Assembly: GCA_944382965.1 (NCBI GenBank)
Contig: CALWOA010000018.1
Location: 1-52,610 of the forward strand
Source: an uncultured Oscillospiraceae bacterium
GTDB taxonomy: Bacteria > Bacillota > Clostridia > Oscillospirales > Oscillospiraceae
Reading direction: 5' to 3'
DNA length: 52,610 bases
Shown here piece by piece: positions 28,414-31,897 of the stretch; the stretch's first letter is position 1; each line of letters starts with the position of its first letter. A program made the position numbers and the translations under genes. The notes under the pieces were generated by a model. It worked only from the letters and a program-made list of their open reading frames with translations. It was not told where the DNA came from and did not search any database.

Positions 28414-28959
28414 TCAGCGATGCAGGGCCTTGCGCAGCACCGGCACGATGATCAGTGCCACGGCTCCGCCGATCAGTGCAGTGACCAGCTGAGGCCAGGC
28501 AAACATGGTGGGCAGCATCTTCAGCATAGGCTCCTTCAGCGTACCCGCCTCCAGCAGCGGTGCGGCAGCCAGTCCGCAGATAATCTTTACCACCAGCAGA
28601 TACAGCACCGCAAACTTTGCCAGAGCAGCAACCAGCCAGGCGGCAATCTGCTTGCCCAGAACCTTGCTGTCCGTTCCGGCAATCAGCCGAATCAGCACCA
28701 CAAACACCGTGTTGCCCACCATAATCGCCGGCACCGTCACCGCCTGTGGGGCGATGCCCAGCAGGAATGCCAGCACAGGAGAAATCACCGCAATGGTAAT
28801 ACCGCTGCCCAAGCCCGTCAGCAGGGCCGCCAGGGCCAGCACTGCGTTGACGCAGGAACCGGTGACAAACTGTCCGAAGCTCTTGGTGACCGACTGCAGA
28901 ACAATCAGCAGCGCCAGCAGCAAAGCGGTTTCCGTAATCCAGCGAATTTTCTTACTCAT
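28414..28959 (-). CDS. ECF-type S-component-like membrane protein
   Basis: A 181-residue protein with about six membrane helices. The size, the short N-terminal basic segment (MSKKIRWITE) and the pattern of small-residue helices resemble substrate-binding S components of ECF transporters; no ECF ATPases are nearby, so a shared energising module would be needed. The ligand is unknown. It starts 18 bp after the TM1266-type regulator stop, with AAAGAGGATATTGTT as ribosome binding site, so both genes share the riboswitch-like leader. This link is the main hint about ligand and pathway. Confidence 0.55.
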   Translation of the reverse strand: MSKKIRWITETALLLALLIVLQSVTKSFGQFVTGSCVNAVLALAALLTGLGSGITIAVISPVLAFLLGIAPQAVTVPAIMVGNTVFVVLIRLIAGTDSKVLGKQIAAWLVAALAKFAVLYLLVVKIICGLAAAPLLEAGTLKEPMLKMLPTMFAWPQLVTALIGGAVALIIVPVLRKALHR

Positions 28960-28977: not shown

Positions 28978-29241
28978 TTATTCTTGATCTTCGGCAGTAA
29001 CCCCGGAGTAGGCAGTTTTCACGCTGATTCCCGGCAGGCTTCCGACTTTCCCAGCCAGAGCGGAAATGGTGTCCTGGGGTGCGTCCAGGGCAATGGCGAT
29101 GATATTGACTCCCCGCTTCCGATAAGGAATGCCCATTCGTCCGATGATGTACTCTCCGTAGGTATGGAGCATGGCGTTGAGCTGCTCCACCGCGTCCGGG
29201 TTTTCCACGATGATGCTCATAACCGCTACCCGTGTTTGCAT
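28978..29241 (-). CDS. TM1266-type putative iron-only hydrogenase system regulator
   Basis: An 87-residue protein with the family features: 'TRVAVMSIIVEN' strand, 'YGEYIIGRMGIPYRKRGVN' core, and 'APQDTISALAGKVGSLPGISVKT' at the end. The fold is ferredoxin-like/ACT-like. The family co-occurs with [FeFe]-hydrogenase maturation genes and is called a regulator on that basis; its action has not been shown. The start at 29241 follows GGAGGGG with 4-nt spacing; the upstream frame extension runs into the structured leader. The window's only hydrogenase is 21 kb away. Confidence 0.88.
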   Translation of the reverse strand: MQTRVAVMSIIVENPDAVEQLNAMLHTYGEYIIGRMGIPYRKRGVNIIAIALDAPQDTISALAGKVGSLPGISVKTAYSGVTAEDQE

Positions 29242-29252
29242 AGAACCCCTCC

Positions 29253-29374
29253 AAAATAAAAATTGCCGTGACCTGACGGCACGGCAACGGCAGTATCCCC
29301 GGCAGACACCGGGGAAGAAACACCATATTCGCACCTTTCACGCAGCGCCTTGCGCTTAATGTCAGGATCACGGC
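29253..29374 (-). promoter_or_regulatory. Riboswitch-like attenuator of the TM1266/S-component operon
   Basis: At the expected transcript start GCCGTGA-T-CCTGAC (29361-29374) pairs with GTCAGGTCACGGC (29265-29277), a 13-bp P1 with one bulge. The same 3' strand also forms an 8-bp terminator stem, TTGCCGTG/CACGGCAA (29263-29270 with 29280-29287), followed by TTTTTATTTT (29253-29262). The two are mutually exclusive. Inside P1 are the hairpins AGCGC/GCGCT (29344-29356) and CCCCGG/CCGGGG (29297-29314). No known riboswitch consensus was recognised. Confidence 0.7.
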
Positions 29375-29377
29375 ATC

Positions 29378-29406
29378 ATCATAGCACACAAGTTCTTCTT
29401 TGTCCA
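29378..29406 (-). promoter_or_regulatory. Promoter of the TM1266 operon
   Basis: TGGACA (29401-29406), 17-nt spacer, TATGAT (29378-29383) on the minus strand; start expected at about 29371-29374. Confidence 0.8.
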
Positions 29407-29492: not shown

Positions 29493-30311
29493 TTAATTCC
29501 AGGTTTCCAGCAGCTTTGTGATCCAGCGGCAAAGTTTTTCACTGGACTGCTCCGCAATGCGCACCACTTCTTCGTGGCTGTGCTTTCCTGTGCGCAGTCC
29601 GGTTGCCATATTGGTGATGCAGGCAATGCCCAGGGTCTTGATGCCCAGGTAGTTGGCGGCGATGGTCTCGGGCACAGTGGACATGCCGATGGCATCGCTT
29701 CCCAGGGTCTTATACATCCGGATTTCCGCAGCGGTTTCGTAGTATGGGCCCTGGAAGAAGGTATAGACACCGTGTTTGGTTTCTATCCCTAAGCTGTCTG
29801 CCGCTGCCTTTGCCTTTTCCCGCAGCGCAGTGGAGTAGGGCTCAGACATGTCCGGGAACCGGGGACCAAATCGCTCATCATTCTCTCCAATCAACGGATT
29901 GGTGCCGATGGAGTTGATAAAGTCATCAATGATCATCAGGTCTCCTGGCGCAAATCCCGGATTGATGCCGCCGCAGGCGTTGGTGACAATCATATTTTCA
30001 ATCCCCAGCAGTTTCATTACATACACCGGGTAGGCCACTTCCTTCAAGGAAAATCCTTCATAGTAGTGGAACCGCCCCTGCAGGGCCAGCACCTTAGTTT
30101 GTCCGATTTTGCCGAAGACCAGATTGCCCGCATGACCGGCTACAGTGCTCCGGGGGAAGTGGGGAATCTGCTGATAGGGAATGGTCTTTTTCTCCGTCAT
30201 GGCATCCACGATTTTTCCCAGACCGCTGCCCAGAATCACCGCCACATCCACCTTCTGTCCCAGCTGGGACTGGATATAGTCGGCGCTTTCTTTTACCTGA
30301 TCGTAAAACAT
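29493..30311 (-). CDS. punA: Purine nucleoside phosphorylase
   Basis: A 272-residue trimeric-type PNP that splits guanosine or inosine with phosphate into base and ribose-1-phosphate. Motifs: phosphate site 'ILGSGLGKI' and 'GRFHYYEG', the 'TNACGGIN' segment, 'FFQGPYYETAAEIRM' and the 'IGMSTVPETIAA' substrate region. GGAGGTTATCAAA precedes ATG 30311; the longer frame is rejected. It lies 69 bp after the DUF1576 gene with an intercistronic hairpin and no promoter, so it depends on the ZTP-controlled transcript. Confidence 0.96.
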   Translation of the reverse strand: MFYDQVKESADYIQSQLGQKVDVAVILGSGLGKIVDAMTEKKTIPYQQIPHFPRSTVAGHAGNLVFGKIGQTKVLALQGRFHYYEGFSLKEVAYPVYVMKLLGIENMIVTNACGGINPGFAPGDLMIIDDFINSIGTNPLIGENDERFGPRFPDMSEPYSTALREKAKAAADSLGIETKHGVYTFFQGPYYETAAEIRMYKTLGSDAIGMSTVPETIAANYLGIKTLGIACITNMATGLRTGKHSHEEVVRIAEQSSEKLCRWITKLLETWN

Positions 30312-30380: not shown

Positions 30381-31715
30381 TTATTTCACCTTCAGTTCCC
30401 GGCGTTCCTGCTTGGTCTTGGTGAACCGCTCCAGCTGAGGAATCAGCAGAACGCAGATCAGCGCTGCAGTGAAGCCGCCGTTATACAGGCAGAATCCGCC
30501 GTGCAGGTTGGGTACGGAAGTCACCAGCATGTAGTGCATGGCACCTGCCAGAGCGCCAAACTGCCAGCCGTACTTGCTGGACACCGGGCTTAAGCCGTTG
30601 GCGTAGCACAGTCCCACGCAGATGGCTTGGGCGTTGATGGCCTGGGCAAAGGTCCCCCCTGCCAAGATAGACAGCCAGCTGAACACCACCGAGGCCAGGA
30701 AGTAACCAACCATAATGGGCCAGACATTACCCGGATGGGAACCGGAGTTACAGGTAGAGAGCATGCAGAAAATAATACCGAAGGTCACGCCGTTGAAGGA
30801 CGCGCCGATGAGATTATAGTATCCCAGAATGAACAGGCCGAACACGCCCACATTCATCAGGAATACTGCATTGCCGTAAGTAGAGGAGAAATTGTTCACC
30901 GCTGCCTTGTCGGTCAGCAGGCGCCAGTAATCCCGGGGTTTGCATCCCAATGCCAGCGCACCCAGTACGCAAAGCCCAAAGACAATGCCGCAGAACAGAT
31001 TCACCGTCAGCCGGGAAGCTACCTGAAGCTGGGCAGAATCGGCTCCGTCAGGCAGGGCAACACCCATGGTTTTGTACAGTACTGCATTCAGGAAGAACGC
31101 CGTCATGCCAATGGGCAGCGCTGCGGAGTACAGGTCAAAGCCCTTGTGAATGCTGGGAGATGCCGCCATACCCGCCGGCAGGAAAAATCCAATGACAATA
31201 CCCACCAGCACAGCCACGCCAATGCCCGGCAGGTTGAAGCCCACCGCCTCGGCGTAGGGGTAGCGGATCATCAAATCCGTAATCAACGGCGCAATACCGG
31301 TGGAGAACATCATGGCGTTGACCAGGCTGCCGAAGGATTCCTTCTTCACCAGGCCGTAAAGCATCACGCCGAAAATGGTGGGCCAGATGTTCAGGATGTT
31401 GATGCCCCAGGAGCAGAAACCCAGCGTCAGCACCACGGCCAACGTGGAAACATTATTGGCCTTGCCCCGGAATACCACAAACAGCCCCAGGCAAATCAGC
31501 CCCACCAAGCCCATGTTCAGGAAGGTAGCCGCATAGCCGCCCACTGCAAAGTAGTTGGTAGTCAGCTTGCTGGGCTGGCTAATGATCTGCCACAGGCCGG
31601 AAAACATGCTGCCCCGATCCGGCATACACACAGCCCCAACCAGGAAAGCCAGGCTCAGCAGCCCAAAAAACAGCTTCAAAAAGTCGCTTTCGGAGAGATT
31701 TCTGATTTTTTTCAT
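30381..31715 (-). CDS. DUF1576 polytopic membrane protein
   Basis: A 444-residue protein with 11-12 predicted membrane helices; the conserved blocks 'STCNSGSHPGNVWPIMVGYF' and 'NGLSPVSSKYGW' place it in the DUF1576 family. The biochemical function is unknown. The start at 31715 follows GAGGGGTGCATT. It is the first gene behind a ZTP riboswitch and is followed by purine nucleoside phosphorylase. This makes a purine, nucleoside or folate-precursor transporter the best guess from context. Confidence 0.82.
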   Translation of the reverse strand: MKKIRNLSESDFLKLFFGLLSLAFLVGAVCMPDRGSMFSGLWQIISQPSKLTTNYFAVGGYAATFLNMGLVGLICLGLFVVFRGKANNVSTLAVVLTLGFCSWGINILNIWPTIFGVMLYGLVKKESFGSLVNAMMFSTGIAPLITDLMIRYPYAEAVGFNLPGIGVAVLVGIVIGFFLPAGMAASPSIHKGFDLYSAALPIGMTAFFLNAVLYKTMGVALPDGADSAQLQVASRLTVNLFCGIVFGLCVLGALALGCKPRDYWRLLTDKAAVNNFSSTYGNAVFLMNVGVFGLFILGYYNLIGASFNGVTFGIIFCMLSTCNSGSHPGNVWPIMVGYFLASVVFSWLSILAGGTFAQAINAQAICVGLCYANGLSPVSSKYGWQFGALAGAMHYMLVTSVPNLHGGFCLYNGGFTAALICVLLIPQLERFTKTKQERRELKVK

Positions 31716-31780
31716 AATGCACCCCTCGATTCTTTGTGTTGACACACCCTTTGTCTTCCCGCCTGTTCGAAAACCCTATG

Positions 31781-31885
31781 AACAAAAAGGGCGATCCAGT
31801 TTGGTAACCAGATCGCCCAGACGGTCGGCACAACTACTCTTACACTTCCCCTGCGTTAAACCGCATTCGTCCGTCAGTCATGTAA
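31781..31885 (-). promoter_or_regulatory. ZTP riboswitch (pfl motif) with terminator
   Basis: On the minus strand TGACTGACGG (5' core, about 31871-31880), GGGGAAGTG, and then GCCGACCGTCTGGGC (31815-31829), the hallmark 3' core of the pfl/ZTP motif. The pseudoknot GACGG (31871-31875) with CCGTC (31820-31824) is kept although one base pair differs from the usual GGCGG/CCGCC, so it covaries. The 3' core overlaps the stem GGGCGATC/GATCGCCC of a terminator ending in TTTTTGTT (31781-31818), the usual ON-switch layout: ligand binding should prevent termination. ZTP/ZMP signals folate-limited purine synthesis. Confidence 0.85.
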
Positions 31886-31897
31886 GATGGTACATTC

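Follow-up and report, generated by a model that had tools for sequence, protein, structure and literature searches.

The window analysed here, the whole stretch of 52,610 nucleotides from an uncultured Oscillospiraceae bacterium, carries on its minus strand two genes preceded by a short structured leader. The features of this locus, listed in the direction of transcription, are the following:

29378..29406, minus strand: sigma-70-type promoter TGGACA-17-TATGAT with an extended -10 TG (consensus scan, 10 of 12 matches)
29362..29374, minus strand: 5' strand of helix P1, GCCGTGATCCTGA, the predicted antiterminator arm, which includes the conserved CCUGA
29334..29366, minus strand: conserved putative sensing hairpin CCUGACAUUAAGCGCAAGGCGCUGCGUGAAAGG, 33 nt (covariance models R1 and R2, fold)
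29330..29335, minus strand: GGUGCG, at the 3' end of the conserved hairpin, predicted second antiterminator contact with CGUGCC on the 5' side of the terminator
29296..29315, minus strand: linker hairpin, 8 bp, G/C-rich (leader folds, letters)
29265..29276, minus strand: 3' strand of P1, TCAGGTCACGGC, overlapping the terminator loop and 3' arm
29253..29287, minus strand: intrinsic terminator, TTGCCGTG/CACGGCAA followed by TTTTTATTTT (letters, scan, fold)
28978..29241, minus strand: TM1266-family gene, 87 aa, putative regulator of the [FeFe]-hydrogenase system (PF21699, 108.8 bits; TIGR03959, 114.3 bits, cut-off 60.8)
28414..28959, minus strand: ECF transporter S-component, 181 aa (PF12822, 47.2 bits, gathering cut-off 30.7)

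The two genes agree with a sequence-only reading of this stretch, which had proposed a TM1266-type regulator and an S-component-like protein. The S-component has no NCBIfam match and no sequence relative in the PDB; the structures closest to its predicted fold are RibU and ThiT (query TM around 0.62, with a modest E of 2.3e-3). Another regulatory RNA lies nearby. A ZMP/ZTP riboswitch (window positions 31808-31891, minus strand; 48 bits, gathering cut-off 39) precedes the genes of a DUF1576 membrane protein (30381-31718) and a purine nucleoside phosphorylase (29493-30311), a context that suggests a purine-related role for DUF1576.

The promoter scan of the leader returned one match, compared with 0.3 expected in shuffles. 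The transcript is predicted to start about 7 nt past the -10 element, on the 29374 side, that is, at the 5' strand of P1, where the sequence-only reading had placed it. P1 pairs GCCGTGATCCTGA with TCAGGTCACGGC through 12 pairs and one bulged U, so the helix described earlier is present with one pair fewer than the 13 bp claimed. Its duplex energy is -26.3 kcal/mol when the 5' segment is taken slightly longer and -24.6 kcal/mol in a second cut. The enclosed segment measures 85 nt, against the 80 nt or so first given, and contains the two firm hairpins that had been noted, AGCGC/GCGCU and the G/C-rich linker hairpin. The terminator folded alone (29287-29253) reaches -16.1 kcal/mol (z -5.6), and the terminator scan of the leader returned its 6-pair core. 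As proposed, P1 and the terminator are mutually exclusive, because the 3' strand of P1 is common to both. The complete 136-nt leader folds at -59.1 kcal/mol, compared with -43.8 kcal/mol (sd 3.7) in 200 shuffles, none of which is as low (z -4.1). Its minimum-energy fold includes the GGUGCG/CGUGCC pairing, a duplex of -12.3 kcal/mol that beats only 80% of swaps.

The conserved part of the leader is the 33-nt hairpin. In the window it is built from outer CCU/AGG pairs, a purine internal loop (GA/AA), a 3-bp helix (CAU/GUG), a second internal loop and the 5-bp P2, and represents the form with a 3-bp inner helix. The class consensus spans 33-40 nt and reads CUGAC ... RAAGR: the outer pairs end in C-G and U-A, GA faces RA, the resulting loop and a second purine internal loop flank a helix of 3-4 bp, and the apical stem is variable. 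The DNA upstream of TM1266 in many genomes of the family shows CUGAC, a short variable hairpin, RAAGR and then a terminator. Folded alone, the window hairpin adopts the consensus structure at -12.3 kcal/mol, with a z of only -1.6 against shuffles. BLAST searches of 200 family genomes with the leader DNA gave scattered short matches only and were uninformative because the RNA is too diverged.

Covariation was evaluated in 35 hairpins chosen by sequence alone and aligned with MAFFT. In this alignment CUGAC and G.AAG are invariant, 82% of the cells are paired and the covariation score is 0.431, a value that none of 500 shuffles reaches (0.208 in shuffles); sliding the partners gives no more than 0.181. 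Pairs in which both sides have changed number 8, which is not unusual, as 176 of the 500 shuffles reach this count. A second set of 72 hairpins, taken from other genomes, has five helix positions (8, 9, 13, 14 and 15) that exceed all 500 shuffles; it was picked by the covariance model and is therefore biased towards the model's structure. Over all curated instances, CUGAC is kept in 127 of 133 unique cores and RAAG in 131 of 133. Model R1, which was trained with the window hairpin included, scores this hairpin at 29.8 bits. For model R2, 80 named TM1266 loci supplied 45 matches and the window was left out; it gives the window hairpin 39.7 bits (E 3.2e-8), the only match in the window up to E 10. 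Those 45 matches (E <= 0.05) fall in 41 of the loci, and 45 of 45 lie on the TM1266 strand.

Reading the CUGA/RAAG loop as a kink-turn was rejected by hand, as no consistent 3-nt bulge or C-stem was found. Some loci have two hairpin copies, in tandem or one per gene in an operon (L132, 143-174 and 181-225; L278, 170-215 and 220-265; L260, 4879 and 6292). Five loci upstream of TM1266 (L094, L108, L111, L118 and L119) have longer leaders with a further CUGAC segment upstream, which could base-pair with some of the hairpin; R1 found the hairpin in L108 and L119, weakly in L094 and L118, and not in L111.

No Rfam family (4227 searched) falls on the leader when the whole window is compared at the gathering cut-off. 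A search with 281 nt of the leader region at E <= 10 returned only chance-level Thr_leader matches (14.1 and 12.8 bits; gathering cut-off 55), and 16 and 12 further loci searched at E <= 5 gave no match on the hairpin. The hairpin is a conserved, covarying and putatively cis-regulatory RNA that matches no Rfam family, and the novelty suggested by the sequence-only reading stands in this comparison. In the accessible parts of the open-licence literature, including the ncRNA surveys PMC11109978 and PMC8632094, neither this RNA nor a regulon of this kind was found to be described.

The RNA resembles several known systems. As in terminator-type riboswitches, a conserved structured element lies in a 5' leader with mutually exclusive antiterminator and terminator, ahead of coherent genes that include importers; unlike them, the window RNA is a single hairpin that matches none of the Rfam families. 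The RAT elements of BglG/LicT are hairpins of about 30 nt with two internal loops, which compete with a terminator and have a small regulator gene nearby. The window RNA shares these traits, but its predicted sign is opposite (the folded hairpin terminates) and TM1266 belongs to PF21699; no CAT/PRD protein was found among the seven window proteins scanned. The HMP-PP (thiS) and xanthine (NMT1) riboswitches are likewise compact bacterial elements, and the NMT1 motif is named after a broad transporter class to which the importers described below are related. Both should be Rfam families, whereas the present RNA has no Rfam match and the controlled genes differ.

The distribution of the RNA follows that of TM1266. 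A family search found TM1266 in 79 of 200 genomes of the window's family. The RNA (R1, E <= 1e-3) occurs in 55 of these 200 genomes, in 48 of 391 genomes of the class and in 12 of 299 of the phylum, the class and phylum samples containing the window's genome and a few common genomes. Over the genomes searched, the class of RNA occurs in Clostridia and a few other Bacillota. Within the family and at the same threshold, it is present in 54 of the 79 TM1266-bearing genomes, compared with 1 of the 121 lacking TM1266, and absent from 25 of the 79. The sole TM1266-less genome with the RNA (G115) is a plausible case at a contig end. Among the 55 genomes with class or phylum matches, 51 carry TM1266; the four exceptions are G589, G812 and G848, whose matches were judged to be chance, and G392. 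For HydE-bearing genomes of the family, the RNA is found in 34 of 46 with TM1266 and in 0 of 5 without it.

The genes behind the RNA belong largely to one system. The RNA precedes hydrogenase-system genes in 34 of 38 loci from the class and phylum searches, the gene behind it being TM1266 (24 loci), hydG (5), or hydE, hydF, aspA, a FecCD permease or an S-component (1 each). The other four loci (L225-L228) are chance-like; 19 of the 49 class-search matches and the weak R1 family matches without a fetched region lie outside this reading of gene context. RNA loci that do not adjoin TM1266 stand ahead of hydE, of hydE-hydG-hydF, of an NMT1/SsuA-like ABC importer, or of nifH-like/nifD-like operons with hydE and hypF, and a similar number of weaker family matches (L182, L184-L189) are chance-like. 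Representatives of the proteins encoded behind the RNA pass the NCBIfam cut-offs for HydE (561.3 and 545.5 bits), HydG (897.1 bits) and HydF (531.4 bits), and other hydE, hydG and hydF loci were labelled by tblastn to these representatives. The AspA representative passes the subfamily model NF008909 (669.8 bits, cut-off 510) and lies below the equivalog TIGR00839 (564.2 bits, cut-off 681.2).

Of the 135 curated instances, 107 have TM1266 as their first gene, a count inflated by the many loci that were found through TM1266. The curated set leaves out the loci whose context looked chance-like or unclear (L182, L184, L185, L186, L187, L188, L189, L225, L226, L227 and L228) and also L181, which may be real, with a lipoprotein start at a contig end. 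It omits in-operon matches below about 22 bits (the second copies of L087, L088, L074, L075, L073 and L065; L063, L094, L118 and L135), together with L242, the second matches of L235, L240 and L278, and the duplicates L296, L300, L204 and L219. Regular-expression matches far from TM1266 or inside genes were not used as instances (e.g., L094, L098, L099, L106, L107, L127, L130 and L137).

The RNA precedes aspA in locus L197. As far as the accessible part of PMC11736057 goes, ammonia-lyase genes, above all aspA, are reported to adjoin hyd operons and to supply nitrogen for the dithiomethylamine ligand, which makes AspA a notable member of the regulon; no RNA or regulator is described in that part. 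The predicted regulon is coherent, joining TM1266, hydE, hydG, hydF, aspA, nitrogenase-like genes or an importer, and we infer that the RNA reads something about the supply of the H-cluster.

The nitrogenase-like genes recur in a particular setting. Five HydE-bearing genomes without HydG were tested (G033, G041, G104, G150 and G170), and four of them have an RNA-linked operon with NifH-like and NifD-like genes (loci L174, L175, L179 and L068; Pfam), with HydE in three and HypF in two of these operons. The named loci L267, L271, L279 and L280 show the order TM1266-FecC-FecE-HydE-NifH-NifD. Speculatively, a nitrogenase-like system together with HypF might replace HydG in providing the CO/CN ligands.

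A terminator-like hairpin lies within 230 nt in 102 of the 135 curated instances, compared with 3-6 of 135 in five shuffles; the scan found no terminator in the other 33. In the 102 instances, the 3' strand of the hairpin (RAAGR plus 12 nt) pairs with its own terminator 5' arm at -11.72 kcal/mol, compared with -8.35 kcal/mol for swapped arms (p 1.6e-15), and the own pairing beats 90% of swaps in 51 of them. At least two AAGR bases take part in 95 of the 102 alternative duplexes. Three control pairings show no difference between own and swapped partners (p 0.92, 0.44 and 0.64; n = 102). Since the hairpin strand pairs with the terminator arm, the hairpin and the antiterminator should compete and the folded hairpin should terminate (OFF). 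Two features of a riboswitch are found here, an element backed by covariation and an expression platform mutually exclusive with it.

In the proposed mechanism, the hairpin would form first in the nascent RNA. An effector that stabilises it would keep both strands occupied, the downstream terminator would form and the genes would be OFF. On the other hand, when the effector is absent, the hairpin 3' strand (RAAGR and the following nucleotides) would pair with the terminator and transcription would continue; in the window leader the hairpin 5' strand, through P1, would also pair with the terminator. The folds of the window leader fit this sequence of events. The hairpin is the minimum-energy fold of the nascent transcript up to about 95 nt. 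In the full leader, the antiterminated structure (P1 plus GGUGCG/CGUGCC) lies at -58.4 kcal/mol, compared with -50.5 kcal/mol for hairpin plus terminator. Read-through is consequently the predicted default, an effector that holds the hairpin would turn the genes off, and the 7.9 kcal/mol by which the equilibrium fold favours read-through must be supplied by the effector or by kinetics. The predicted direction of the switch, folded hairpin meaning termination, rests on these pairings. In the hydG leaders L217 and L224, RAAGR lies directly next to a purine-rich Shine-Dalgarno sequence, an arrangement consistent with the same sign of control in translation; control in these few hydG leaders is therefore probably translational.

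A P1-type antiterminator (5' strand with the terminator 3' side) was rejected as a general feature of the class (own versus swapped, p 0.92; n = 102). The sequence-only reading had made its switch depend on the retention of P1/terminator pairing in close homologues. Among relatives with the S-component, the pairing is strong in L259 (-17.8 kcal/mol), L246 (-14.8) and L277 (-11.4) and is weak in L230 (-6.0); L232 and L239, in which the scan called no terminator, were unscored and by eye lack it. The switch survives this partial loss because there is a further contact, between the hairpin 3' strand and the terminator 5' arm.

Taken as a whole, the leader probably (about three chances in four) belongs to a conserved class of leader RNAs that act by attenuation on genes through which the H-cluster of [FeFe]-hydrogenases is made or, probably, acquired. 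With about even odds, and ahead of the TM1266 protein, the effector would be a small molecule or a metal complex connected with H-cluster assembly. A small ligand fits a riboswitch-like regulon in which genes for biosynthesis and for uptake are combined. A small hairpin with neither junction nor pseudoknot is nevertheless unusual for a metabolite aptamer. Cobalamin had been named among the candidate cofactors in the sequence-only reading, and no result obtained here supports it or any other named ligand.

A possible alternative, on the doubtful side, is that the effector is the TM1266 protein itself: bound to the hairpin as a dimer or tetramer, it would repress the whole regulon including its own operon, and its ACT-like fold may carry a ligand. 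The hairpin is pseudo-symmetric, with an approximate twofold relation that would suit such a protein, and the one solved relative, 2nzc, presumably represents an oligomer (dimer or tetramer) of the ACT-like fold class. The co-occurrence described above also speaks for it, namely TM1266 in 54 of 55 family genomes and 51 of 55 class or phylum genomes with the RNA (three of the four exceptions being chance-like), the lack of the RNA in the 5 HydE-bearing genomes without TM1266, and the inflated lead position of the gene, but the same pattern is expected from mere membership of the regulon. Moreover, the residue conservation of TM1266 did not separate genomes with the RNA from those without it (57 and 21 proteins): the 21 proteins from RNA-less genomes keep nearly all residues conserved in the other 57, with relaxation above 0.2 confined to positions 13 and 31. 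Two genomes, G392 and G115, combine a plausible RNA with an apparent lack of TM1266, but they are incomplete (93% and 79%).

It is improbable that the leader acts passively, as an attenuator or mRNA-processing element that responds to no specific effector: the terminators and alternative pairings would suit such an element, but the near-invariant CUGAC and RAAG amid varying helices and the single-function regulon point to specific recognition. Least probable of all is the earlier picture of a riboswitch whose aptamer is the 85 nt or so closed by P1, since that helix, strong as it is and kept in L246, L259 and L277, is not general in the class, is weak in L230, and pairs with the conserved CCUGA, thereby disrupting the 33-nt hairpin that is the conserved, covarying part; what stands of the claimed switch linking the two genes is the attenuator and a conserved element found across a coherent regulon.

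The preferred reading, an RNA that would respond to H-cluster supply, has to be seen together with the hydrogenase genes of the window's family. At the cut-offs used, HydA (PF02906, E <= 1e-30) is found in 168 of 200 family genomes and HydE (E <= 1e-60) in 51. At least 117 of the 200 have HydA and no HydE, and hydrogenases without the known maturase are therefore common in this family. An [FeFe]-hydrogenase gene is present in the window's genome (90.8% complete), which is one of those with TM1266 and no HydE; HydF and HydG were not found in it either, and its HydA has all three H-cluster motifs. HydA is present in 31 of the 33 genomes with TM1266 and no HydE. HydG is missing from 32 of them (G121 has it) and HydF from 29, with HydF in G072, G121 and G148 and a fragment in G130. 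The HydA proteins of 20 such maturase-less genomes keep motifs 1 and 2 in 20 of 20 and motif 3 in 18 of 20. In at least 7 of the 33 genomes, no more than 5 kb separates HydA from TM1266.

The RNA or TM1266 locus of these HydE-less genomes often holds an importer. In a list compiled by reading the loci, HydE occurs in 2 of 22 TM1266-bearing genomes with an NMT1-like importer at the locus, compared with 44 of 57 without one (p 3e-8, kinship ignored). The importer binding protein (E < 1e-60) was sought in 80 chosen genomes. It is found in 33 of 44 genomes with HydA but neither HydE nor TM1266, in 10 of 18 with HydE and TM1266, in 0 of 12 without HydA and in 6 of 6 positive controls; the importer therefore goes with HydA (both HydA-bearing groups versus HydA-less, p 6e-6). 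Its presence anywhere in the genome does not separate HydE-less from HydE-bearing genomes (33 of 44 versus 10 of 18, p 0.14). The 11 of 44 maturase-less genomes that lack it and the 10 of 18 HydE-bearing genomes that have it argue against a strict either/or replacement. The nearest solved structure of the binding protein is 3hn0, a 'nitrate transport protein' (4.7e-35); neither this match nor the PDB search with the S-component pointed to a ligand. Six aligned binding proteins share an invariant Cys near the C-terminus in the motif A-x-P-x-C, five of them with N as the next residue, and this Cys could contact a metal or thiolate ligand.

A more specific proposal, which we consider unlikely, is that those bacteria of this family which have HydA and lack HydE, HydF and HydG take up a finished H-cluster precursor, or a late intermediate, released by neighbours, via NMT1-like ABC, FecBCE-type or ECF S-component importers. 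The hairpin RNA would sense that compound in the manner of a vitamin riboswitch, shutting off synthesis (hydE/G/F, aspA) or uptake when the supply is sufficient. Synthetic diiron complexes are in use to mature the apo-enzyme, according to the accessible parts of PMC12752695 and PMC12933642, and precursor import is for this reason chemically not absurd. The importers make the cofactor-scavenging hypothesis directly testable.

If the main reading is true, the leader would represent an undescribed class of regulatory RNA, tied to one of the most elaborate metal cofactors in biology. It would also offer an entry point to the role of the small TM1266 protein and to the way in which the active site is supplied in hydrogenase-bearing bacteria without known maturases.
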